Positions 1,591-31,145 of a DNA stretch of 64,000 nucleotides are shown in pieces. The DNA is taken from positions 62,001-126,000 of the forward strand of contig NZ_JAUSBN010000047.1 of the NCBI RefSeq assembly GCF_030651995.1, in the 5' to 3' direction. Made by a program: the position numbers and the translations under genes. Below the pieces are notes generated by a model. The model worked only from the letters and a program-made list of their open reading frames with translations. It was not told where the DNA came from and did no database searches. How positions within the stretch are numbered: position 1 is the stretch's first letter; each line of letters begins with the position of its first letter. The stretch is from Reyranella sp. GTDB taxonomy: Bacteria; Pseudomonadota; Alphaproteobacteria; Reyranellales; Reyranellaceae.

Positions 1591-2366
1591 CCGCGCCCTC
1601 CCCGACGTCCGGCTTCAGGAGCAAACAGCTCGCGCGCGCTGCGCACACGGATGTTCTCCAGCTTTGTCATTCTTTCCCACAAGGACCTTAGGAAATCCCA
1701 TGCCCCGGCGTCCATCGCAAGATGATGACTGAGGATGCCGATCGGCTCGCCGTCGCCGCCGCGTGCACGTGCGAGCGCGGTCACGAGGGCGGCAAGCACC
1801 GTCTCTTCACCCGCGAAGGTGCGACCGCCCTTCCAGTCGATCAGGTCGACATGAGTATTGACCTGCAGCAGGCCGCGAACCGGATGGAGACGCGGGCGCG
1901 GCCCGAACGTCGAAAGGCCGCGATAGCCGATCTCCGGCAGGGTCGGCACCAGCACCGGCGCAATACGGTTCCATGGCGGTACCATGACAGCGAGCGCCCG
2001 CGAGCCGAACAGTCGCTCCAGCGCCATCCAGCCGGTGCCGAGCTCGCCAAGGGTCAGCATCGCAGGGCGCTGCAGGCCGAGCTCGATACTCTTCTCCGGC
2101 GCGACCGAATGACTGGTGTGAGCATAGCCATGCTGCAGCACGTCGACGCCGGGCTCTCCGGCAAGTCGGTCCGCCAGTGCCGCCGTGGCTCGAGCCGGCA
2201 CCACGGCCATCGCCAGCGGCGTTTCCCTGTCGCGTACGATGGCGAGGAGGCGATCGAGAGCAGGGCCGGCATCGGTAGCGTCGTCGTCGCGCCACCACAG
2301 CTCGGCGATTCGGCCCTCGTCGCGCCAGCGCGCTGCCTCGTCGGCGAGCGCCTGCCAGCTGCTCAT
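1587..2366 (-). CDS. NodB-like polysaccharide deacetylase family protein, 259 aa
   Basis: The ATG at 2366 is chosen because it overlaps the TGA of the upstream glycosyltransferase (ATGA); a longer reading frame upstream has no support. An acidic cluster at D27-D29 ('WWRDDDA') and the HGYAH pair H79/H83 match the metal-binding Asp and His-x3-His of the NodB fold used to remove N- or O-acetyl groups from sugars. No signal peptide is visible, so action on a cytoplasmic sugar intermediate is more likely than on a wall polymer. The neighbours (glycosyltransferases, phosphatase) support a role in modifying the same glycan. The substrate is unknown. Confidence 0.8.
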   Translation of the reverse strand: MSSWQALADEAARWRDEGRIAELWWRDDDATDAGPALDRLLAIVRDRETPLAMAVVPARATAALADRLAGEPGVDVLQHGYAHTSHSVAPEKSIELGLQRPAMLTLGELGTGWMALERLFGSRALAVMVPPWNRIAPVLVPTLPEIGYRGLSTFGPRPRLHPVRGLLQVNTHVDLIDWKGGRTFAGEETVLAALVTALARARGGDGEPIGILSHHLAMDAGAWDFLRSLWERMTKLENIRVRSARELFAPEAGRRGGRG

Positions 2367-3511
2367 GGCATCACCATCTGCTTCAGCGCGGCGACCGTGG
2401 CGGCGGCGCCGTTCGCATCGACCGGCGGAAAGCTGCGGATCGAAGGGCCGGCCCATGCCCTGCCGATGGCGGCCGCGAGGCTCGCGGGCGTCAGATCGTC
2501 GGGCGCGACCGAGGCGACCATGCCGCGCTCGACCAGCACGCGCGCGCGATCGGCCTGCTCGGTTTCACGCGCCGTGCCGAACGGCACCAGGACGGCGCGA
2601 TCGCCATGGCAGAGCGTCTCGACCACCGTGTTGTAGCCGGCCTGCGAGACCGACAGCACGGCGTTGCGGAGCAGCGACGGAAAGTCGGCGCGCACCGGCT
2701 CGACGATGATGCCGTCACCGGCAGACGCGCGGAGCACTTCTGTTTCCGCTTCCGGCATGTTCGGCCCGACCAGAAGGCGCCACCGGCGATCGGCCAGGGG
2801 CGAGAGCGGCCGCGCCGCGATGGCGGCATGAAGAAGCGGGGCGCCGACGGCGCCGCCTCCGGCCGACACGATCACCTCACCCTTGCCGACAGTGTCCCCG
2901 GAAGCCGGCATGGCCTCTGAATCCATGACGTAGCCGGTATAGAGCGCGCGGTCCTGGATGTCGGGCCAGGCGGGGAAACTGTCGTCCAGTCGCACCAGGG
3001 CAGGATCGGCGTGGACCAGCACGGTGTCGAAGGCCTCGAACGTCTGGACCATCTCGTCGACCCTTGCCGGCGACGCGGTGCGGCGCAGCACGTCGCGGAT
3101 CGACGATACGATCCACGGCGCCGATGGCCGGTCCTGCGCCGCCTCGAGCAACGGCAGCAGCTCGAAGCGCAGCTGCGTGCGGCCGAAGGGGAACTGCTCG
3201 GTGAGCAGGATGTCGGGTTCCTCGGCCTCGAACAGATCGAGCAGTTGGCGCGTGCGCGTCGCGCGGAAAGCCTCGTCGACCGGCGTGCCGTCGAGCCGCG
3301 CCAGTTCCTTGAGCCGTGCGTCGGCGGCGCGCACCGGGGGCAGTTGATGAAGCCGGGCGCCGCCCAGCGCCAGCCCGTCGACCGGGGCGCCGCCGGAGAC
3401 CAGCAGCACGTCGAAGCCACCTGCCGCCAGCGCCCGCGCCAGGGCAGCGGCGCGGCGCAGATGGCCGATGCCCAGCAGGTGCTGCACGTAGAAGAAGACG
3501 CGCGCGGTCAT
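2363..3511 (-). CDS. Predicted glycosyltransferase (COG4671-like), 382 aa
   Basis: The start at 3511 is fixed by an ATGA overlap with the upstream phosphatase. The N-terminus (YVQHLLGIGHLRRA) has the G-x-GH-x-x-R loop of MurG/GT28-like two-domain glycosyltransferases, and the C-terminal half has the matching 'SQAGYNTVVE' nucleotide-sugar-binding stretch. It is a paralogue of the gene at 6502-7794, which shows 'SFGLGHVSRC' and 'MGGYNTFCE' at the same places. Two such enzymes in one operon suggest successive sugar transfers on a shared acceptor. Donor and acceptor cannot be read from the sequence. Confidence 0.85.
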   Translation of the reverse strand: MTARVFFYVQHLLGIGHLRRAAALARALAAGGFDVLLVSGGAPVDGLALGGARLHQLPPVRAADARLKELARLDGTPVDEAFRATRTRQLLDLFEAEEPDILLTEQFPFGRTQLRFELLPLLEAAQDRPSAPWIVSSIRDVLRRTASPARVDEMVQTFEAFDTVLVHADPALVRLDDSFPAWPDIQDRALYTGYVMDSEAMPASGDTVGKGEVIVSAGGGAVGAPLLHAAIAARPLSPLADRRWRLLVGPNMPEAETEVLRASAGDGIIVEPVRADFPSLLRNAVLSVSQAGYNTVVETLCHGDRAVLVPFGTARETEQADRARVLVERGMVASVAPDDLTPASLAAAIGRAWAGPSIRSFPPVDANGAAATVAALKQMVMP

Positions 3512-4095
3512 GAGGTGAGCGACACGTTGAGCCGCTCGATCGTCACGCGGCCGTCGCCGTGGGCCACGAAGAAGTGCAGACACGTCCAGTCGAGCTTGTG
3601 CGGCGGACGACCCAGCATGTTCCAGCCGGTCGCCCAAGCCAGCAGCGCGCGGATCGCGGCCTTGTGCGATACCGCGACCACGGGTTCCGTCAGCGTCGAA
3701 CTCCAGTGCGACAGGCGGGCCATCGCGAGGCGCGGCGACTCTCCGCCGGGCGGATGGAAGTCGAGGCCGGCCGCTTCCGCCGCCGCGAAGACCTCGCCGC
3801 CGGTCGCGCGCAGCTGCTCCACCGTGAAGCCTTCCCAGACGCCGAAACTCATCTCGCGCAGACGCGAATCGATGGCGACAGGCGCCGAGGGCTGCACGAG
3901 TTCGGCCGTCCGGCGCGCGCGTTGCAACGGGCTGCTCAGGCGCTTCCAGTGCGCGGCCGGCGGCGGCAGGCGCCATTGCCGCGCCGCCGCCTCGCCTTCG
4001 GGGCTGAGGCCGGTGTCGGTCAGTCCCTGCAGGCGGCCGGCGGCATTCCAGCGCGTCGGGACGTGGCGCAGCAGCGCGAAGGGCACGGCCCTCAT
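3508..4095 (-). CDS. Histidine phosphatase family protein, 195 aa
   Basis: This is a branch-1 histidine phosphatase (phosphoglycerate-mutase fold). The catalytic loop reads LLRHVPTRWN near residue 8, so the usual RHG is RHV here, but the nucleophilic His and both arginines are present. The second His lies in 'VAVSHKAAIRALL'. The start at 4095 overlaps the stop of the upstream glycosyltransferase (ATGA). In this operon it might dephosphorylate a sugar phosphate, but that is inferred only from its position. Confidence 0.85.
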   Translation of the reverse strand: MRAVPFALLRHVPTRWNAAGRLQGLTDTGLSPEGEAAARQWRLPPPAAHWKRLSSPLQRARRTAELVQPSAPVAIDSRLREMSFGVWEGFTVEQLRATGGEVFAAAEAAGLDFHPPGGESPRLAMARLSHWSSTLTEPVVAVSHKAAIRALLAWATGWNMLGRPPHKLDWTCLHFFVAHGDGRVTIERLNVSLTS

Positions 4096-5207
4096 CGCTT
4101 CACGCCCCGCAAGGTCGCGAGGGCCGCCCGCAGCGCGTGCGCCGCGGCACGCTCGTCGTGATGCGCCGCCACCCGGTGCGCCGCGGCGGTGCCAAGGCGT
4201 GCGCGTTCGGCCGGATCCTCCAGCAGCCGGGCCACGGCCGCCGCGAAGGAAGCCGCATCGCCGATCGGCGTCAGCTGACCCGTGACACCGTCGGCCACGA
4301 CCGCGGGCACGCCGCCGGTGCGGCCGGCGACGACGGGCAAGCCGGCCGCCTGAGCTTCGAGAAAGGCCATGCCATACGCTTCGTTGATTGCGGGCCAAAG
4401 GTAAAGGTCCGCCGACGCGTAGAGTGCCGGCAACTCGACGTGCGGCACGGCGCCGGCAAAGCGCACGCGGGAGCCGAAAGGCGCCATCAACCCCTCGATC
4501 TCGGCGCGCGCGGGACCGTCGCCGACCAGCAGGGCGCGCCATTCCCTGTCCCCCAGCAGGGCGAAGGCGCGGGCCAGCACGCGATAGGACTCGAGCTTGT
4601 CGCGCGTGCGCATCATGCCGACGCTGAGCAACAGGGGCGGCCGGCCGGGGTCTCGGCCCAACGGAACCTGGAACGGCGCGACGTCGATGAAGGGCGGCAG
4701 CCAGACCTGGCGCGCACCGGGCCGCAGCCGCGCCTTCACCCCGGCCATGTCCCGCGGATTGACGGTCAGCACGAGGTCGGCCGCAGCCAGCGCCCGCTCG
4801 ACGGCGCGATGGCCGGCCCGTGTCGGTCCCTGGGCCCGGCGCGGCGCATGCGAAGCCTCGGCGATCACGTAAGGAACACCCAGCGCCTGGGTCACCACGG
4901 GACCCAGCCAATCGGGCTTGCGATAGTAGCAGTGATAGGTGAACCAGAGATCGAAGCGCTCCGGATGATGCGCGGGCAGCGCCCGCCAGCGTGTGATCAA
5001 CCGCCCTGCCTGCGCGCGCGCGCGCCGCTCCAGCGACAGATGCGCGGCGACCGGCGGCACACCGGGCGCGACGCGGCTCGCGTCCGGCATCGTGACCGCG
5101 TGGCCGATACGTTCGAGGAGGCGCGCCAGCCCGCGCGCCATCTCGCGATCCCCCGAAGGCACGGGACTGTCGGGTGCCTTCAACGGCGTGTGCAGCAGCA
5201 CGCGCAT
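4092..5207 (-). CDS. GT4-family glycosyltransferase, 371 aa
   Basis: The ATG at 5207 begins 'MRVLLHTPLKAPD' with the glycine/serine loop 'PVPSGDREMARGLARLL' of GT-B enzymes. The C-terminal domain has 'EAYGMAFLEAQAAGLPVVAG', the E-x7-E donor-sugar motif of retaining GT4 enzymes. It starts two bases after the stop of the upstream glycosyltransferase and ends in an ATGA overlap with the phosphatase gene, so it is part of one coupled operon. No membrane segment is visible, so it is presumably cytoplasmic or peripheral to the inner membrane. Donor and acceptor are unknown. Confidence 0.88.
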   Translation of the reverse strand: MRVLLHTPLKAPDSPVPSGDREMARGLARLLERIGHAVTMPDASRVAPGVPPVAAHLSLERRARAQAGRLITRWRALPAHHPERFDLWFTYHCYYRKPDWLGPVVTQALGVPYVIAEASHAPRRAQGPTRAGHRAVERALAAADLVLTVNPRDMAGVKARLRPGARQVWLPPFIDVAPFQVPLGRDPGRPPLLLSVGMMRTRDKLESYRVLARAFALLGDREWRALLVGDGPARAEIEGLMAPFGSRVRFAGAVPHVELPALYASADLYLWPAINEAYGMAFLEAQAAGLPVVAGRTGGVPAVVADGVTGQLTPIGDAASFAAAVARLLEDPAERARLGTAAAHRVAAHHDERAAAHALRAALATLRGVKR

Positions 5208-5209
5208 GG

Positions 5210-6487
5210 CTACTCCGCGGCGCGCGCCGTGACGGTGCTCTCGCGGTGCCGGTCCTGCAACGCCGACGCGATCCATTCGACGCCGGCCTCGTAGGAAAAG
5301 CGCGTGCGCACGACCTCTCCGGCGCGCTGCGCCAGCCTCTGCCGCAGCACCGGATCGGCGATCATGCGGGCGAGCGCACCACCGAGCTCGCGCGGCGCGG
5401 CCGGCGGCACCAGCAGGCCGGTCTGGCCATCCTCGACGAATTCGCCGATGGCCGCGGCCTGCGTCGATACGAGGGGCAGGCCCTGATGCGCCGCCTCCAT
5501 CAACACGTTGGGCAGTCCGTCCTGGTCTCCGTCGGCGGCCTTCTTGCTCGCCAGCACGAACAGATCGGCACGGGCCAAGGCCGCGAACACCGCCTTCTGC
5601 GGCTGGCCGCCCTGCCAGGTGCAGCGATCGGCAATGCCGAGGGCGGCAGCCTGGGCCTTCAGAGCGTCGGAGAGTTCACCCGCGCCGACATGCTCGAAGC
5701 GCCAGTGCAGACCGTGCGGCAGCTGTGCCAGCGCGTTCAGAAGATCGTCATAGCCTTTCTTTTCGACCTTGCGGCCGACCGAAAGGATCACGACGGGATC
5801 GGCAGGATCCGAACCGTCGCGCGGCGGTCGCGCCGCCGGCGGCGGCGGCAGATGGGCGAAATCGAGCCCGTGATAGACGAGCCGCAGCTTTTCGGGCGCC
5901 GGCGCCAGTTCCTTCAGCCGTTGCAGGCCGACATTGGTGCAGGTCACCAGCCAGGCGCAATCCGCCAGCTTTTCGCGCACATCCCAGGGCTCGCTGGTCC
6001 AGATGTCCTTGGCATGGGCCGACACGCTCCACGGCAGGCCGCGCAGGGTGGCGGCATAGCGCGTCACCGAGGCCGGCGTGTGCAGGAAATGCGCGTAGAG
6101 CCGCTCGATCGTGTCCGGGAGCTCGGCCGCCAGCACCAGCGCCTGGCCCCAGCGTCGCACGCGATTGGCGGTGCGGTCGCGCCGGAGGTCGGCGAGGAAC
6201 TTGGCGCGCGCCGCGCCGTATCCGGGCAAACGGCGCACCTTGAGCCAGGCCGCGAACACGCGCCTAGGCTCGTCCTTCAGATATTCCGGGAGATAGACGA
6301 CGCGGGCCGCGACGCGATCGTGCACCGGATGGCGTGCCTTGTCGGTCGGACGACGCATCGACCAGAGTTCCAGCACCACGCCCTGCGCCTCGAGGCCTGC
6401 GATCTCCTGGGCAATGAACGTCTCGGAGAGGCGCGGCCAGCCCTTCAGGATGACCGCGACTTTGGGCCCGTTGTTTTCGTTCGACAT
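5210..6487 (-). CDS. GT4-family glycosyltransferase (WcaL-like), 425 aa
   Basis: The N-terminus 'LKGWPRLSETFIAQEI' is characteristic of WcaL/colanic-acid-type glycosyltransferases. 'SVSAHAKDIW' lies in the first Rossmann domain. 'DGLPNVLMEAAHQGLPLVST' is the E-x7-like donor-binding motif, and 'GKVEKKGYDDLL'-type residues mark the start of the second domain. It lies 14 bp downstream of the COG4671-like gene and 2 bp upstream of the next transferase. The family builds exopolysaccharide or lipid-linked oligosaccharide; the actual product is unknown. Confidence 0.88.
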   Translation of the reverse strand: MSNENNGPKVAVILKGWPRLSETFIAQEIAGLEAQGVVLELWSMRRPTDKARHPVHDRVAARVVYLPEYLKDEPRRVFAAWLKVRRLPGYGAARAKFLADLRRDRTANRVRRWGQALVLAAELPDTIERLYAHFLHTPASVTRYAATLRGLPWSVSAHAKDIWTSEPWDVREKLADCAWLVTCTNVGLQRLKELAPAPEKLRLVYHGLDFAHLPPPPAARPPRDGSDPADPVVILSVGRKVEKKGYDDLLNALAQLPHGLHWRFEHVGAGELSDALKAQAAALGIADRCTWQGGQPQKAVFAALARADLFVLASKKAADGDQDGLPNVLMEAAHQGLPLVSTQAAAIGEFVEDGQTGLLVPPAAPRELGGALARMIADPVLRQRLAQRAGEVVRTRFSYEAGVEWIASALQDRHRESTVTARAAE

Positions 6488-6501: not shown

Positions 6502-7794
6502 TCAGCTTCGGTGGCGTTCCGGCAAGGGGGCCAGCTCCGCCGAGGCGAGCTCGCCGGCCGCGTTCGCAACGGGCGACTCCGCAACGCCGAGCGACGCCGG
6601 CCCGCGATGCGGATTGGAAAGCTGCTTGGAGACGAGCCGCCAGACGCTGCCCAGCCCGTCGAGCAGGCCTGGCACCACGACGTCGCTCGGCAGGCCCTGC
6701 TGCGGCAGGTGGCGCAGGGCCGTGGCCATCGCCTGCGGGTCGAGGCCGCGGCCGGGATCGAGCATCTCGATCAGGCCGATGTTGCGGGCGGCGCGGGCGC
6801 GGATGAACTGCTCGAGGCGCGGGTGCGTGCGCGGCACGATGATCGCCCGCTTGTCGAACGACAGGATCTCGCAGAACGTGTTGTAGCCGCCCATCGCGAC
6901 GACACCCGCGGCGCGCTGCATCAGCGCGCCGAGGTTGTTGGTGAAGGTCAACGTCCGGATGTTCGGGAACTTCGCGGCCCGTTCCTTGAAGGCCTCACGC
7001 GCCGTGGCCGGCATGAACGGGCCGAACACGATGACCGCCCCGTAGGGAATGTTCGGGTCGGTCTCGTAGGCGGCCAGCACCCAGTCGACCAGCTCGACAC
7101 CGTCGCCGCCACCGCCCGGCGTCACCAGGATGAAGGGACCCTCGATCTCCTCCAATTCGTGCGGCACCTCGCCATGCAGCGGCAATTCGCGCCGCAGATA
7201 GCCGGTATAGACCATCTTGTGACGCACCGACGGCGGCACATCGATGCCGGTCAGCGGCTTGTTGATCTGCGGCAGCCCATAGACCCAGATCTCGTCATAG
7301 AGATCGCGCAGCGCCGGCACGACGTTCTTGCGTTCCCATTCCTTGGCCAGCTGGGCGGGATCGTCCATCACGTCGCGCAGACCGAGGACCAGCGGCGTGC
7401 CGCGCTCCTTCAGGAGGCGCAGGGCGGGACCGACCTCGCCGCGCAGCCCGAGCGGCTCCTTGTCGACGATGAAGAGGTCGGGGCGGAAGATGTCGGCGGT
7501 GTCGCGGATGATGCGGGTGCGCATCTCGAGCGTGTGCTCGACGTTCATGCGCAGGTTGGCCGAGTCGTATTCGCCGGTCTCGATCTTCACGACACCGGGA
7601 ATGCGCACGAAGTCCACGCCCGAGCGGAATTCATAGGAACCGACGACCGGCGAGCCCGACAGGATGAGCACCGACACGGACTGGTCGGCCTCGACGATGG
7701 CATTGGCGATCGTGCGGCAGCGACTCACATGGCCGAGGCCGAAGGAATCGTGGCTATAGAGTAGTACGCGCTTGGACCGGGTGCTGGTGGGCAT
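6502..7794 (-). CDS. Predicted glycosyltransferase (COG4671-like), first gene of operon, 430 aa
   Basis: A strong ribosome-binding site (GGGAGAGG) precedes the ATG at 7794. The loop 'SHDSFGLGHVSRC' and the C-terminal 'VAMGGYNTFCEIL' mark a two-domain, MurG-like transferase and make it a paralogue of the gene at 2363-3511. It is the promoter-proximal gene of the minus-strand run and is divergent from the ABC transporter at 7965, with about 170 bp between the starts. The last ~60 residues are low in complexity and Ala/Pro rich, perhaps a disordered tail. Confidence 0.87.
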   Translation of the reverse strand: MPTSTRSKRVLLYSHDSFGLGHVSRCRTIANAIVEADQSVSVLILSGSPVVGSYEFRSGVDFVRIPGVVKIETGEYDSANLRMNVEHTLEMRTRIIRDTADIFRPDLFIVDKEPLGLRGEVGPALRLLKERGTPLVLGLRDVMDDPAQLAKEWERKNVVPALRDLYDEIWVYGLPQINKPLTGIDVPPSVRHKMVYTGYLRRELPLHGEVPHELEEIEGPFILVTPGGGGDGVELVDWVLAAYETDPNIPYGAVIVFGPFMPATAREAFKERAAKFPNIRTLTFTNNLGALMQRAAGVVAMGGYNTFCEILSFDKRAIIVPRTHPRLEQFIRARAARNIGLIEMLDPGRGLDPQAMATALRHLPQQGLPSDVVVPGLLDGLGSVWRLVSKQLSNPHRGPASLGVAESPVANAAGELASAELAPLPERHRS

Positions 7795-7964
7795 GGGCCT
7801 CTCCCTCGCCGAAGCGGCTACTGCCCCGACCGGTGAACGTCGAGCCGACTATGCCACAAGCCGGGGGTGCCGCGAACCCGGGTGCGGCAACCCGGCAAAT
7901 ATCTAATGTAATCAAGGCACTGATCGCCTATAGGGTGAGGCGCGACGGCGGCGACGCAGGATTC
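7795..7964. promoter_or_regulatory. Divergent intergenic region with AT-rich core
   Basis: This gap lies between the divergent glycosyltransferase and ABC genes. It holds a distinctly AT-rich stretch (about 7892-7915, including 'aaatatctaatgtaatc') and a 'tatagg' hexamer near 7930, in otherwise very GC-rich DNA. This is where promoters for one or both arms most likely lie. The open frame of the ABC gene continues through it to 7833, so the alternative is a longer N-terminus. Confidence 0.4.
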
Positions 7965-10685
7965 ATGGAACGCAGTCTCTTCTCCTACATCTGGCGGCAC
8001 AGCCGGCCCGAGCAGATCGTAATCCTGCTGCTGGTGGTCCTGGCCCAGGTTTTCTACTTCATGTCGCTGACGGTGCCGAAGTCGGTCATCAATAACGGCA
8101 TCCAGGGCAACGCGTTCAAGGACAGCAAGACCATCCCCTTCCTGGTCTGGGAACTGGACCTCTCCGCCATCTTCCCGGGAAGGGTCATCCGGTTCTTTGA
8201 CGGATTCCAGGTCGACCAGCTCCAGTATCTCGTGGTGATGAGCTTCGTCTTCCTGGGGGCCGTCATCGTCAACGGCCTGTTCAAGAAGACGATCAACACC
8301 CAGAAGGGCCGCATGGGCGAGCGCATGCTGCGCCGCCTGCGCTACGAACTCTACGACCGCATCCTGCGCTTCCCGCCGGCCCATTTCCGCAAGGTCAAGC
8401 AGGCCGAGCTCGCCACCATGGTGAAGGACGAGGTCGAGCCGCTGGGCGGGTTCATCGGCGACGCATTCGTGCAGCCGATGTTCCTGGGCGGCCAGGCGCT
8501 GACGGCCATCATCTTCATCATGATGCAGAACTGGCTGCTCGGGATCATCGTGATCGTGCTGCTCGCCGTGCAGATGTCGATCATCCCGCGCCTCCGGAAG
8601 CCCGTGCTGGTGCTGGGCCGCCAGCGGCAGATTTCGGCCCGCCAGCTCGCCGGCCGCATCGCCGAGACCGCCGACGGCGTGCATGAGATCCACATCCACG
8701 GCGCCGCCAACTACGAACGTGCCGATATTTCCGAACGACTGGGACGCATCTTCAAGATCCGCTTCGACCTCTACCAGAAGAAGTTCGTCGCCAAGTTCTG
8801 GAACAACATCCTCTCGCAGGCGACGCCTTTCGCCATCTACCTGGTGGGCGGCTACTTCGCGATCACCGGCCAGATGGACGTCGGCGCCGTGGTCGGCGTG
8901 CTCCTCGCCTACAAGGACCTGCCGTCGCCGATCAAGGAGCTGATCGACTGGGACCAGCAGCGCCAGGACGTGCAGATCAAGTACGAGCAGGTGATCGACC
9001 AGTTCCAGCCCGAGGGCATGATGCCGCCGGAGCTGCAGGCGATCCCTGACGGGCCGCCGCCGCCGCTCGGCAAGGAGCTGGCGTTGGTCGGGGTGGTCGT
9101 GACCGAGGACGGCCGCGTGAAGCAGCTCGACACCCTCTCGCTGACCCTGCCGACCAGCAGTCGGGTGGCGGTGATCGGTGGTTCGGGGTCGGGCAAGGAA
9201 GTGCTGGGCCAGGTGCTGGCACGCCAGACCCTGCCGGCCAGCGGCACGATCCGCATCGACGGCAAGGATTTTTTCCAGGTGCCGGAGTATGTCATCGGCG
9301 CACGGCTGGCCTATGTCGGACAGGACACCTACCTCTTCCCGCTTACCGTCCGCGACAATCTCCTGTTCGGCCTGAAGCTTCGGCCCGTGGCACCGGCAGC
9401 CTATGACGAGGCCACGAAGGTGATTCGCGAGGCGTTCTGGAAGGAATCGGAGCGCGCCGGCAATCCGGCCTTCGATCCCAATGCCGACTGGGTCGACTAC
9501 GAGCTGGCCGGCGCCACCGGCCCGGCCGACCTGCTGCCCTGCATGGTGCGGGTGCTGAAGCAGGTCGAGCTCGACGAAGACATCTATTCCTTGGGCCTGC
9601 GCGGCACCGTCGACGCGGCCGTGCGGCCCGATCTGGCCGAGAAGATCCTGAAGGCGCGGCATACGCTGCACGAGCATCTGCAGGACGGCACCTATGCCGG
9701 CCTGGTCGAGCCGTTCAACGACGACCACTACAACAAGAACCTGTCGGTCGCCGAAAACCTGCTGTTCGGCACGGCGCTAGGCAAGCAGTTCGATGGCGAC
9801 AATCTCGCGGCCGATCCCTACGTGATGTCGGTGCTGCAGAAGACCGGGCTCGACGTCGAACTGCAGCGCATGGGTCTCAGCATCGCCGAGACCATGGTCG
9901 AGCTGTTCTCCGGACTGTCGCCCGACAATCCGCTGTTCGAGCAGTACAGCTTCATCTCGGCCGACGAGCTGCCCAACGTCCGCCTGCTGCTGCAACGCCT
10001 CGGCGGCAAGGGCATCGAGGCGGTGCCCGAGGCCGACCGCATCCGCCTGATGACGCTGCCGTTCCGCTACATCGAAGCGCGCCATCGCCTCGGCCTGATC
10101 GATGCGGCCATGGAGGAGCGGATCCTGGGCGCCCGCCGCGCCTTCGCCGAGGGCCTGCCGGCCAATCTGCGCGACGCCGTCGAATTCTACGATTTCGAGC
10201 GCTACAACAGCGCCGCCACCCTGCAGGACAACATCCTGTTCGGGCGCCTGGTGTACGGCCAGGCGCAGGCGGGCGAGCGCATCGGCAATTTGATCGCCCA
10301 GGTGTTCGACGAGCTCGGTCTGCGCGATTCGGTGATCGGGGTGGGCCTGGAGTACAATGTCGGCGTCGGCGGCAAGAGGTTGCCGGCGAGCCAGCGCCAG
10401 AAGCTCGGAATCGCCCGCGCCCTGATCAAGAGGCCACAGCTCGTGGTCGTCAACGAAGCGGTGGCCATGTTCGACGGTCGCACCCAGGACCGCATTCGCG
10501 ACAACATCCTGGCCGACGCTTCCGAGCGGGCCTCCGGTGTGTTCTGGATCGCCAACCGGCCCAACCAGGCGGAGCCGTTCGATCAGATCGTCGTTATGCA
10601 GGGTGGCCGCGTGGTCGCCCGGGGATCGCCGTCGGAGCTGGCGGCAAGAGGCGGGCTCTATACCGAGCTGATGGCGTCGGCGTAG
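7965..10685 (+). CDS. ABC transporter, fused permease/ATPase with degenerate, insertion-bearing ATPase domain, 906 aa
   Basis: Residues ~1-330 form an exporter-type membrane domain with several hydrophobic helices. The ATPase domain follows from ~370. Walker A is G405-G-S-G-S-G-K411-E412, with Glu in place of the Mg-coordinating Ser/Thr. The Q-loop glutamine is Q453. The signature is LPASQRQ (806-812) rather than LSGGQ. Walker B reads VVVNE, with N830 for the Asp, but the catalytic-type E831 is kept. About 350 residues lie between Q-loop and signature, against roughly 50 normally. The '(D/E)N(L/I)LFG' motif that usually follows the Q-loop occurs three times (near 464, 597 and 755). The start at 7965 is preferred for its GCAGGA ribosome-binding site; GTG 7833 or ATG 7851 are alternatives. 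The cNMP-binding gene follows 20 bp later. Confidence 0.85.
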   Translation: MERSLFSYIWRHSRPEQIVILLLVVLAQVFYFMSLTVPKSVINNGIQGNAFKDSKTIPFLVWELDLSAIFPGRVIRFFDGFQVDQLQYLVVMSFVFLGAVIVNGLFKKTINTQKGRMGERMLRRLRYELYDRILRFPPAHFRKVKQAELATMVKDEVEPLGGFIGDAFVQPMFLGGQALTAIIFIMMQNWLLGIIVIVLLAVQMSIIPRLRKPVLVLGRQRQISARQLAGRIAETADGVHEIHIHGAANYERADISERLGRIFKIRFDLYQKKFVAKFWNNILSQATPFAIYLVGGYFAITGQMDVGAVVGVLLAYKDLPSPIKELIDWDQQRQDVQIKYEQVIDQFQPEGMMPPELQAIPDGPPPPLGKELALVGVVVTEDGRVKQLDTLSLTLPTSSRVAVIGGSGSGKEVLGQVLARQTLPASGTIRIDGKDFFQVPEYVIGARLAYVGQDTYLFPLTVRDNLLFGLKLRPVAPAAYDEATKVIREAFWKESERAGNPAFDPNADWVDYELAGATGPADLLPCMVRVLKQVELDEDIYSLGLRGTVDAAVRPDLAEKILKARHTLHEHLQDGTYAGLVEPFNDDHYNKNLSVAENLLFGTALGKQFDGDNLAADPYVMSVLQKTGLDVELQRMGLSIAETMVELFSGLSPDNPLFEQYSFISADELPNVRLLLQRLGGKGIEAVPEADRIRLMTLPFRYIEARHRLGLIDAAMEERILGARRAFAEGLPANLRDAVEFYDFERYNSAATLQDNILFGRLVYGQAQAGERIGNLIAQVFDELGLRDSVIGVGLEYNVGVGGKRLPASQRQKLGIARALIKRPQLVVVNEAVAMFDGRTQDRIRDNILADASERASGVFWIANRPNQAEPFDQIVVMQGGRVVARGSPSELAARGGLYTELMASA

Positions 10686-11181: not shown

Positions 11182-11670
11182 ATGAGTCGTCTCGACAGCT
11201 TCATCGCGCGCATGCAGGCGCAGCGCGACTGCCTGAATTTCCTGAAGCCCGCCCTCGACGCCGTGCCGGGTCCCATCCTTGAAGTCGGCCTGGGCAACGG
11301 CCGCACCTACGACCATCTGCGCGAGCTCTTTCCCGGCCGGGACATCTATGTGTTCGAACGCAAGGTGGCGGCCCATCCCGACTGCGTCCCGCCCGACGAC
11401 CGGCTGTTCCTCGGCGATGCCGACCGCACGATCGACGAAGCCGCCCGAAAGCTCGGCGCAACGGCCGCGCTGATCCACACCGATCTCGGCACCGGCGACC
11501 ACCAGGCCAATGTCGAAATGGGCAAATGGCTGGGGCCGGCCCTCGACCGGCTTGCCGTTTCAGGCGGCTACGTGCTGGCCAACCAGGCGCTCGACGTCGC
11601 GCGCTGGCAGCGCCTGCCCGAGCCTCCGGGCGTGCCGAAGGACCGGTATTTTCTCTATCGCGTGCGTTAG
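11182..11670 (+). CDS. Class I SAM-dependent methyltransferase-like protein, 162 aa
   Basis: This is a short Rossmann-fold protein. Motif I is 'ILEVGLGNGRTYDHL', followed by 'IYVFERKVAAHPDC', whose acidic residue would hold the ribose of SAM, and 'ALIHTDLGTGD'. At 162 residues it is close to the minimum for this fold and has little room for a separate substrate domain. It ends the plus-strand arm of the glycan/ABC cluster and faces the GlsB-like gene, stop to stop, with a 4 bp gap. The substrate is unknown. Confidence 0.78.
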   Translation: MSRLDSFIARMQAQRDCLNFLKPALDAVPGPILEVGLGNGRTYDHLRELFPGRDIYVFERKVAAHPDCVPPDDRLFLGDADRTIDEAARKLGATAALIHTDLGTGDHQANVEMGKWLGPALDRLAVSGGYVLANQALDVARWQRLPEPPGVPKDRYFLYRVR

Positions 11671-11932: not shown

Positions 11933-12754
11933 CTAGACCTCGAACGTTGCCGACACCGGCACATGGTCCGATGCCTTTTCCCAATCGCGTAGATCGACGT
12001 CGATGTGATGACTGCGGATCGCGCCAGCAAGGGCGGGGCTCGCCAGGATGTGGTCGAGCCGCCGGCCGCGGTTGGAGACGCGCCAGTCGGTGTTGCGATA
12101 GCTCCACCACGAATAGAGCTTCTGGTCTTCGGGCACGAACTTGCGCGGCACGTCGATCCAGTCGAGCGACGCCTGGAGCCGTTCGAACAATTCCACTTCG
12201 ACCGGCGTGTGCGAGACGATCTTCAGGAGCTGCTTGTGGCTCCAGACATCGTGTTCCAGCGGGGCCACATTGAGGTCGCCCACGGTGATGCGGCGCAGGC
12301 CCTTGCGGGCGCGCGGTCCGGGCTTGCGCCCCGCGTACCAGTCCGCCATCTCGCGGTAGAAATCGAGCTTGTGCGCGAACTTCACGTTGAGGTCGGGGTC
12401 GGGAATGTCGCCCCCGGCGGGAATGTAGAGATTGTCGAGCAGGATCGGATCGCCCCCGACATCGAGCGCGACCTCGACATGCCGGCAATCCTCCTTGCCG
12501 CAGCGATGATGGATGGTGCCGGCGGCGAACGGCACCTTCGACAGGATCGCCACGCCGTTATAGGCCTTCATCCCCTGCACGAAGCGATGGGTGTAGCCCA
12601 TGCGTTCGAAGGCCTCGTGCGGGAAGAATTCGTCCGGGCACTTGGTCTCCTGGAGGCACAGCACATCGGGCTGGCGCAACTTCAGGTACCGTTCGACGTT
12701 TCCGATCCGCAGCCGGACCGAGTTTATGTTCCAGGTCGCAATGGTGAGACTCAT
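11933..12754 (-). CDS. xthA: Exodeoxyribonuclease III, 273 aa
   Basis: This enzyme cuts DNA at abasic sites and removes 3'-blocking groups in base-excision repair. It shows the exonuclease/endonuclease/phosphatase fold: 'ATWNINSVRLR' at the N-terminus, 'LCLQETKCPDEFF' with the metal-binding Glu, 'VGDLNVAP' with the Asp-Asn pair, and the C-terminal 'RRLDHILAS' and 'SDHVPV' holding the catalytic Asp-His. The length is normal for the bacterial family. The GlsB-like gene follows closely. Confidence 0.95.
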   Translation of the reverse strand: MSLTIATWNINSVRLRIGNVERYLKLRQPDVLCLQETKCPDEFFPHEAFERMGYTHRFVQGMKAYNGVAILSKVPFAAGTIHHRCGKEDCRHVEVALDVGGDPILLDNLYIPAGGDIPDPDLNVKFAHKLDFYREMADWYAGRKPGPRARKGLRRITVGDLNVAPLEHDVWSHKQLLKIVSHTPVEVELFERLQASLDWIDVPRKFVPEDQKLYSWWSYRNTDWRVSNRGRRLDHILASPALAGAIRSHHIDVDLRDWEKASDHVPVSATFEV

Positions 12755-29793: not shown

Positions 29794-31145
29794 TGCTGCG
29801 CCATCTGCGCGTCTGGTTGTTCGGCAGCGGCGATGCGGCCCAGCTGCCCGAGCGCGTGCGCGCGGCGATCGAACGCCAGCAGGAGCAGAGCGAGATCCTG
29901 ATCGGCTGGGTGCAGCTGGTCATCGTGGTGCTGGTCGCCACGGTCTACGAATCGAGCTCCATGCCGAGTGGTGTGGTGCAGGAGGATTACTCCTTCGAGT
30001 TCGAGGTGCTGGTGATCTACGGCGCCTTCTGTCTGCTGCGACTGGGCCTCGCCTACGCACGCCTGTTGCGGCCCTGGATGCTCTACCTGTCGGTGATCGC
30101 CGACATGCTCCTGCTGATGGGGCTGATCTACTCGTTCCACTACAAGTACGCCCAGCCGGCGGTCTTCTATCTGAAGGCGCCGACGTTCCTCTACGTGTTC
30201 CTGTTCATCGCCCTCCGCGCGCTGCGCTTCGAGGCGCGCTTCGTCGTGTTCACCGGCCTCGCGGCGATCGCGGGCTGGATCGGGCTCATCCTCTACGCGT
30301 TGGGCGGCCGTGGCGGGCCGGCCAATCCGACCGACGACTTCGTCGAGTACATGACCTCGAACGCATTTCTGGTCCACGCCGAGGCCGACAAGATCATCGC
30401 CATCCTGCTCACCACCCTGGTACTGGCGCTGGCCATCTCGCGGGCCCGTCACCTGCTGGTGCAGGCGGTGAGCGAAAGCGCCGCGGCGCAGGATCTGTCG
30501 CGCTTCTTCGATCCCGGAGTCGCGGCGCGCATCCGCGGCGCGGCGATTTCGATCAAAGCGGGTGAAGGCGAGCTGCGCGATGTCGCGATCCTCACCGCCG
30601 ACCTGCGCGGCTTCACACGGCTGTCGATGGAACTCCCGCCGGATGAAGTGATGAAGGTCCTGCAGGACTACCAGAGGCGCGTCTGCCCGCTGATCGCGGA
30701 GGCCGGCGGCAGCATCGACAAGTTCCTGGGTGACGGCATCCTGGCCTCGTTCGGCGCGGTCATGCCGTCGGCGACCGCCGCCGCCGACGCGCTCCGGGCG
30801 GCCGACGCGGTGATGGCGGCCGCCGCAAACTGGGCTTCGGAACGTCGCGCGGCGGGCCTCCCGCCCCTGGAGATCGGCCTTGCCGTCGCGTCCGGGCGGG
30901 TGGTGTTCGGCGCGGTCGGCGATGGCGAACGGCTCGAATTCACGGTGATCGGGGAGGCCGTGAATCTCGCGACGAAGCTCGAGAAGCACAACAAGGAAGA
31001 GGGAACCCGCGCCCTGACGGACGGCGAAACCTATGCGCTCGCCGAGCGTCAGGGCTATCGTGCGCCCACGGTGCCTGAGCGGCGGCCGAATCGGAAGGTT
31101 GGCGGCGTTACGGAATCTGTCGATATTGTGGTCCTTGCCGCCTGA
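29793..31145 (+). CDS. Membrane class III adenylate/guanylate cyclase, 450 aa
   Basis: Five or six hydrophobic helices (residues ~35-215) precede a cytoplasmic cyclase domain from ~260. Metal-binding aspartates lie in 'LTADLRGFTRL' and 'DKFLGDGILASF'; the latter Lys is the usual purine-contact residue. 'FTVIGEAVNLATKLE' keeps the catalytic Asn but has Lys where the transition-state Arg normally sits. Product is likely cAMP, but specificity is not certain. A stand-alone cNMP-binding protein is encoded at 10706, a possible receptor. Confidence 0.88.
   Translation: MLRHLRVWLFGSGDAAQLPERVRAAIERQQEQSEILIGWVQLVIVVLVATVYESSSMPSGVVQEDYSFEFEVLVIYGAFCLLRLGLAYARLLRPWMLYLSVIADMLLLMGLIYSFHYKYAQPAVFYLKAPTFLYVFLFIALRALRFEARFVVFTGLAAIAGWIGLILYALGGRGGPANPTDDFVEYMTSNAFLVHAEADKIIAILLTTLVLALAISRARHLLVQAVSESAAAQDLSRFFDPGVAARIRGAAISIKAGEGELRDVAILTADLRGFTRLSMELPPDEVMKVLQDYQRRVCPLIAEAGGSIDKFLGDGILASFGAVMPSATAAADALRAADAVMAAAANWASERRAAGLPPLEIGLAVASGRVVFGAVGDGERLEFTVIGEAVNLATKLEKHNKEEGTRALTDGETYALAERQGYRAPTVPERRPNRKVGGVTESVDIVVLAA

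Follow-up and report, generated by a model that had tools for sequence, protein, structure and literature searches.

An ABC-exporter-shaped protein family of Alphaproteobacteria with degenerate catalytic motifs, linked to a cNMP-binding protein and a glycosyltransferase cluster

The locus and its genes

The window, i.e., the whole stretch of 64,000 nucleotides of Reyranella DNA that was analysed, contains a gene for an ABC-exporter-like protein with altered catalytic motifs, named here the pseudo-ABC protein. It is followed by the genes of a cNMP-binding protein and of a SAM methyltransferase, and four divergently transcribed glycosyltransferase genes lie upstream of it (Table 1). The longest ORF (7833-10685, plus strand) encodes 950 aa from a GTG at 7833. 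The gene probably starts at the ATG at 7965 (Met45 of this ORF), yielding a protein of 906 aa, because this is where the alignment with the homologues begins and because the divergent gene has its start at 7794. Residue numbers (e.g., Q497, K455, E875) follow the 950-aa ORF unless Met45 numbering is stated.

Table 1. Positions of the genes, domains and motifs in the window; residues are those of the 950-aa ORF.
Feature	Position	Strand	Residues	Remarks
GT28b, glycosyltransferase with GT28 C-terminal domain	2363..3976	-		neighbourhood and genome-sample search
GT4-family glycosyltransferase b	4092..5276	-		neighbourhood analysis
GT4-family glycosyltransferase a	5210..6487	-		neighbourhood analysis
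GT28a, divergent glycosyltransferase	6502..7794	-		co-occurs with the pseudo-ABC gene
Pseudo-ABC protein gene	7965..10685	+		906 aa from Met45 (probable start); homologue alignment, AlphaFold model
ABC-exporter-type transmembrane domain	8016..9062	+	62-410	Pfam ABC_membrane at residues 62-356
Degenerate Walker A, GGSGSGKEV	9177..9203	+		canonical S/T replaced by E
Unit 1: strand, Q-loop (Q497), DNLLFG helix	9312..9392	+	494-520
Family-specific insert	9393..10178	+	521-782
Unit 2 core (R2), LVEPFNDDHYNKNLSVAENLLFG	9702..9776	+	624-648
Unit 3 core (R3), AVEFYDFERYNSAATLQDNILFG	10176..10250	+	782-806	runs on into the signature region
Degenerate signature, LPASQRQ	10380..10400	+		sequence and homologue alignment
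Degenerate Walker B, VVVNE	10443..10457	+		D replaced by N
Degenerate H-loop, IANRPN	10545..10562	+		His replaced by Asn (N908)
cNMP-binding protein gene, 149 aa	10706..11155	+		20 bp after the pseudo-ABC gene; Pfam, neighbourhood
SAM methyltransferase, Methyltransf_17 (PF12692)	11182..11670	+		follows the cNMP gene; near in about half of relatives

The pseudo-ABC protein matches PF00664 (exporter transmembrane domain) and PF00005, the latter covering half an NBD. The transmembrane domain and its intracellular loops, one of which is the very conserved GERMLRRLRYELYDRILRF, are among the best-conserved stretches of the protein. The best NCBIfam match is MsbA (TIGR02203), with 181.8 bits that fall below the equivalog cut-off of 602; a separate, more MsbA-like gene of the same genome reaches 499.8 bits.

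An AlphaFold model, which had been proposed as a check when the sequence was first read, is confident (pLDDT 90.7, pTM 0.86). The modelled NBD fold is whole and carries in addition an inserted helical region, since VIA-align superposes the ComA NBD over 239/239 residues (2.0 Å, Z 29.6) and complete exporters (PCAT1, TM287/288, MsbA and P-glycoprotein) match the model across residues 6-910 with a Z of about 28-29. With an ABC_membrane domain and an NBD in one chain and an exporter-like predicted structure, the protein has the type IV ABC exporter fold by Pfam and structure match. The model of a cNMP-fused homologue reaches a pLDDT of 88.8.

Family-wide loss of the catalytic motifs under purifying selection

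Judged by sequence, the pseudo-ABC protein is a member of a widespread, ABC-exporter-shaped bacterial family that is conserved throughout its class. A homologue at E <1e-100 was found in 78 of 240 alphaproteobacterial genomes, a collection scan returned 68 loci, mostly from Reyranella and Enhydrobacter, and 262 plasmid records carry a homologue, mainly from Rhizobium and Sinorhizobium. All 28 matches in a phylum-wide sample belong to Alphaproteobacteria, the share of other classes in that sample not being stated. Two genomes hold two divergent family copies each, G154 (L143 and L146) and G042 (L145 and L149). Searches of the open-access literature for pseudo-ATPase ABC exporters, and for cNMP, ABC and glycosyltransferase together, did not return a description of the family, which apparently is undescribed in that literature.

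The sequence-only reading had listed an altered Walker A and Walker B, an altered signature, a long spacing between Q-loop and signature and three (D/E)N-x-LFG motifs, and all these elements are present. Walker A ends in K-E (GGSGSGKE) where a functional ABC ATPase has GxxGxGK[S/T], Walker B is VVVNE instead of hhhhDE, and the signature, which begins at L850, reads LPASQRQ instead of LSGGQ. To these we add the H-loop, whose His is also substituted (IANRP). The motifs GK(S/T), LSGG and DE are found in canonical exporters of the same genome, namely in four half-exporters and in the two halves of a fifth ORF.

The catalytic residues were counted in an alignment of 71 non-redundant alphaproteobacterial homologues (<70% identical), and the full set is found in 0/71. 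The Walker A S/T is kept in 4 and replaced by E/D in 54; the Walker B D is kept in 11, with N in 37, and the following E in 36; the H-loop H persists in 22, and the signature GG is mostly gone. The Walker A Lys/Arg (67/71), the D-loop D (61/71) and the QRQK after the signature are retained. In a set of 52 Reyranella-like copies, the substitutions have become fixed (position 456, D in 44 and E in 8; position 874, N in 51/51; position 908, N in 46 and S in 5), and their dN/dS of about 0.09-0.36 indicates purifying selection. In the tree, the pseudo-ABC family forms one clade, apart from the canonical exporters; the acidic residue after K/R prevails throughout it, and the losses of E and H are scattered over many branches. 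This pattern would fit a scenario in which the ancestor lost hydrolysis and constraint was relaxed afterwards.

The absence of a full catalytic set from the 71 homologues argues strongly that the pseudo-ABC protein does not hydrolyse ATP in the normal way, as had been suggested before. The protein may still bind some ATP, because the Walker A Lys/Arg and, in 36/71, the Walker B Glu remain. A protein that has retained the exporter fold, the coupling loops and the NBD fold, but in which both halves of the composite ATP site are gone, is not capable of a normal ATP cycle. The composition of this site in ABC exporters has been described (PMC7756269). In the pseudo-ABC family, the E/D conserved after the lysine of the P-loop would occupy the position of Mg-ATP.

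Three Q-loop modules, a cNMP-binding partner and co-occurring glycosyltransferases

The motifs DNLLFG, ENLLFG and DNILFG lie, as first noted, at residues 464, 597 and 755 in Met45 numbering (508, 641 and 799 of the 950-aa ORF), and the spacing of ~350 residues between Q-loop and signature amounts to 353 (Q497 to L850). Within this spacing, an insert of ~275 residues (247-308 in all family members) contains the near-invariant blocks ADWxDY, GLRGxxDP, TMVELFADLPPGHEFFEQFSFI and ARHRLGLID, and searches of Pfam, NCBIfam and the PDB sequences found nothing related to it. Apart from the insert, the NBD can be aligned over its full length with a canonical exporter.

Profile-profile comparison relates the three units to one another. 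Units 2 and 3 match with E 3e-12 on the original segments, and with an hhalign probability of 98.6% (E 9e-16) when the segments are extended to 48 columns that include the preceding "iLxAR..." helix; unit 1 matches unit 2 with E 2e-6 and unit 3 with E 6e-6. Control segments taken from other parts of the protein do not reach 5%, one control that overlapped unit 3 by design matching there only. Unit 3 also matches the Q-loop-to-signature stretch of canonical ABC exporters (98.8%, E 1e-16), and units 1 and 2 align with the Q-loop part of this stretch, unit 2 weakly. Because the units match one another and the canonical stretch, the module formed by strand, Q-loop and (D/E)N-x-LFG is present three times, which bears out the proposal of an internal duplication of the Q-loop-proximal region. 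A coincidental occurrence of three LFG motifs is ruled out by these E values and the negative controls. The homologues keep the repeats, so that the condition under which the first reading was to be abandoned, homologues lacking them, did not arise. The motif Asn is conserved in 97%, 100% and 100% of the 71 sequences (R1, R2 and R3, respectively), and all of them have the Gly that closes R3; the three repeats are better conserved than the catalytic residues. The tripled Q-loop/helical module is probably a docking and coupling platform.

The cNMP gene is preceded by GAGGAGG, which resembles a ribosome-binding site. Its counterpart lies directly downstream of the pseudo-ABC gene, or is fused to the C terminus of the pseudo-ABC protein, in 66 of the 70 assessable loci, and was not seen within the locus DNA examined in the other four. 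Seven loci (L137, L140, L135, L141, L143, L146 and L147) encode such C-terminal fusions, of 1043-1080 aa; both copies of G154 are fused. The neighbouring protein has a PF00027 domain with the GE...PR(T/S)A phosphate-binding cassette, which is near-invariant among these cNMP proteins (G 100%, E 94%, R 100%). That the cNMP domain now acts as the switch is suggested by its conserved ligand site, by the fusions and by the additional helical platform. The idea that the neighbouring cNMP-binding protein controls the pseudo-ABC protein is supported by the adjacency of the genes, by the seven fused proteins and by the intact predicted ligand motif, and the control itself is what we infer from them. 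The Reyranella genome encodes 27 class III cyclase domains. A domain of the class III adenylate/guanylate cyclases (41 bits) is encoded at 30576-31001 of the window, some 20 kb away from the cNMP gene.

GT28a occurs in 74 of the 78 genomes with the pseudo-ABC gene, also where the genes are unlinked, and the presence of both agrees in 233 of 240 genomes (74 with both, 4 and 3 with a single one, 159 with neither; Fisher p 7e-53, uncorrected for phylogeny, shared ancestry being ignored). Of the same 240 genomes, 79 contain GT28b. The arrangement varies: the glycosyltransferases lie downstream and in the same orientation as the pseudo-ABC gene in some relatives (L136 and L138), three lie upstream in the same orientation in Phyllobacterium, and in others they are unlinked. 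Judging from the co-occurrence, the four glycosyltransferases most likely make the substrate of the pseudo-ABC protein. At the position of the methyltransferase, Sinorhizobium meliloti has a different one, FkbM-like by eye. An exodeoxyribonuclease III gene (xth; 11936-12754, minus strand) lies just downstream of the cluster and is near in many relatives.

Interpretation and comparison with known systems

The explanation that we prefer, to which we give a probability of about one in two, is that the pseudo-ABC protein is an ATP-dead protein with the ABC exporter fold that belongs to a glycan pathway, that its cNMP partner replaces the control by ATP and that the tripled module is the platform for this. 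According to this explanation, the common ancestor of the family would have lost ATP hydrolysis, carrying, as judged from the tree, G-(K/R)-(E/D), N-E and LS-A-A instead of GK(S/T), DE and LSGG. The NBD, its fold still whole, would now have a structural role and serve in coupling. The Q-loop/(D/E)N-x-LFG module, the normal docking place of the transmembrane domain, would have been multiplied to three copies, of which the two additional ones, together with their linkers, would form the conserved helical platform. On this platform the neighbouring or fused cNMP protein might most likely dock, and cyclic-nucleotide binding might take over the conformational control once exerted by ATP. The pseudo-ABC protein would work in one pathway with the four-glycosyltransferase cluster, and it could most likely pass or gate the membrane-bound glycan product of this pathway. 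A bolder version, which we put forward tentatively, is that the whole family is ATP-independent, with a docked or fused CRP-like domain acting as the switch through the triplicated Q-loop/coupling module, so that an exporter would have become a second-messenger-gated glycan conduit.

A different possibility, somewhat doubtful in our view, is that of a non-transporting scaffold or receptor, in which the ABC-fold platform would hold the glycosyltransferases at the membrane and relay the cNMP signal to them. SUR, an ABC protein that regulates and does not transport, offers a parallel. The dead catalytic site, the large conserved cytosolic insert and the near-perfect co-occurrence with glycosyltransferases would all be consistent with such a role, but the high conservation of the transmembrane domain and of its intracellular loops is what one would expect if a conduit and its coupling still matter.

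We consider it unlikely that the protein still uses ATP to drive export by means of an atypical active site. The residues retained in the family (the Walker A K/R, the Walker B E in about half of the homologues, the D-loop D and QRQK) speak for it, but the Mg-coordinating S/T and the Walker B D have become E/D and N/S family-wide, the signature GG is mostly gone, and E and H have been lost independently in many branches while the gene persists. Still less probable is a degenerate half of a heterodimer whose canonical partner is encoded elsewhere: heterodimers in which one site is degenerate are common among ABC exporters (PMC7756269) and canonical half-exporters are present in the Reyranella genome, but both Walker motifs and the signature are degenerate in one chain, so neither composite site would be standard, and no linked partner exporter gene appears among the conserved neighbours in the loci examined. 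Finally, a decaying gene, as the broken catalytic motifs could suggest, is ruled out for practical purposes by purifying selection and class-wide conservation.

ABC exporters are seen as engines that run on ATP. If our preferred explanation is true, the family would show a route from a primary transporter to a ligand-gated or scaffold protein. Across Alphaproteobacteria, Rhizobium and Sinorhizobium among them, the fold and the transmembrane domain would have been kept, the engine lost, the coupling module triplicated and a cNMP partner gained. The class-wide conservation and the tie to the glycosyltransferase cluster go beyond the sequence-only reading, and they point to an uncharacterised glycan pathway in tractable bacteria.

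Among known systems, the pseudo-ABC protein resembles the type IV exporters (MsbA/TmrAB/PCAT-like) in having the transmembrane domain and the NBD in one chain and in its structural Z of about 28, and it differs from them in its about 275 extra residues between Q-loop and signature, its three Q-loop/helix modules and the lack of a canonical catalytic set. With the degenerate-site heterodimers it shares altered Walker B and signature motifs, but these exporters keep one consensus site per dimer (PMC7756269), whereas every motif of the pseudo-ABC chain, Walker A included, is altered.

In S. meliloti, MsbA2 (SMb21191) is likewise an exporter-like gene within a glycosyltransferase operon; the msbA2 operon follows an acyltransferase gene at about 938 kb of pSymB (PMC3687685), whereas the pseudo-ABC relative lies near 842 kb in strain 2011 and adjoins a cNMP gene. 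Both are apparently different loci. A search for a mutant phenotype attached to this relative, through the tags SMb20804-20814, SMb21189-21195 and SMb21267-21273, led to other loci or to nothing.

HetC of Nostoc PCC 7120 is a precedent for an ABC exporter that depends on a cNMP-type domain: this domain is required for function and bound ppGpp, not cAMP (PMC10986499). It is N-terminal in HetC, where an ATPase residue is essential (PMC10986499), whereas the pseudo-ABC family has lost the ATPase motifs and has its cNMP domain either on a neighbouring protein or at the C terminus.
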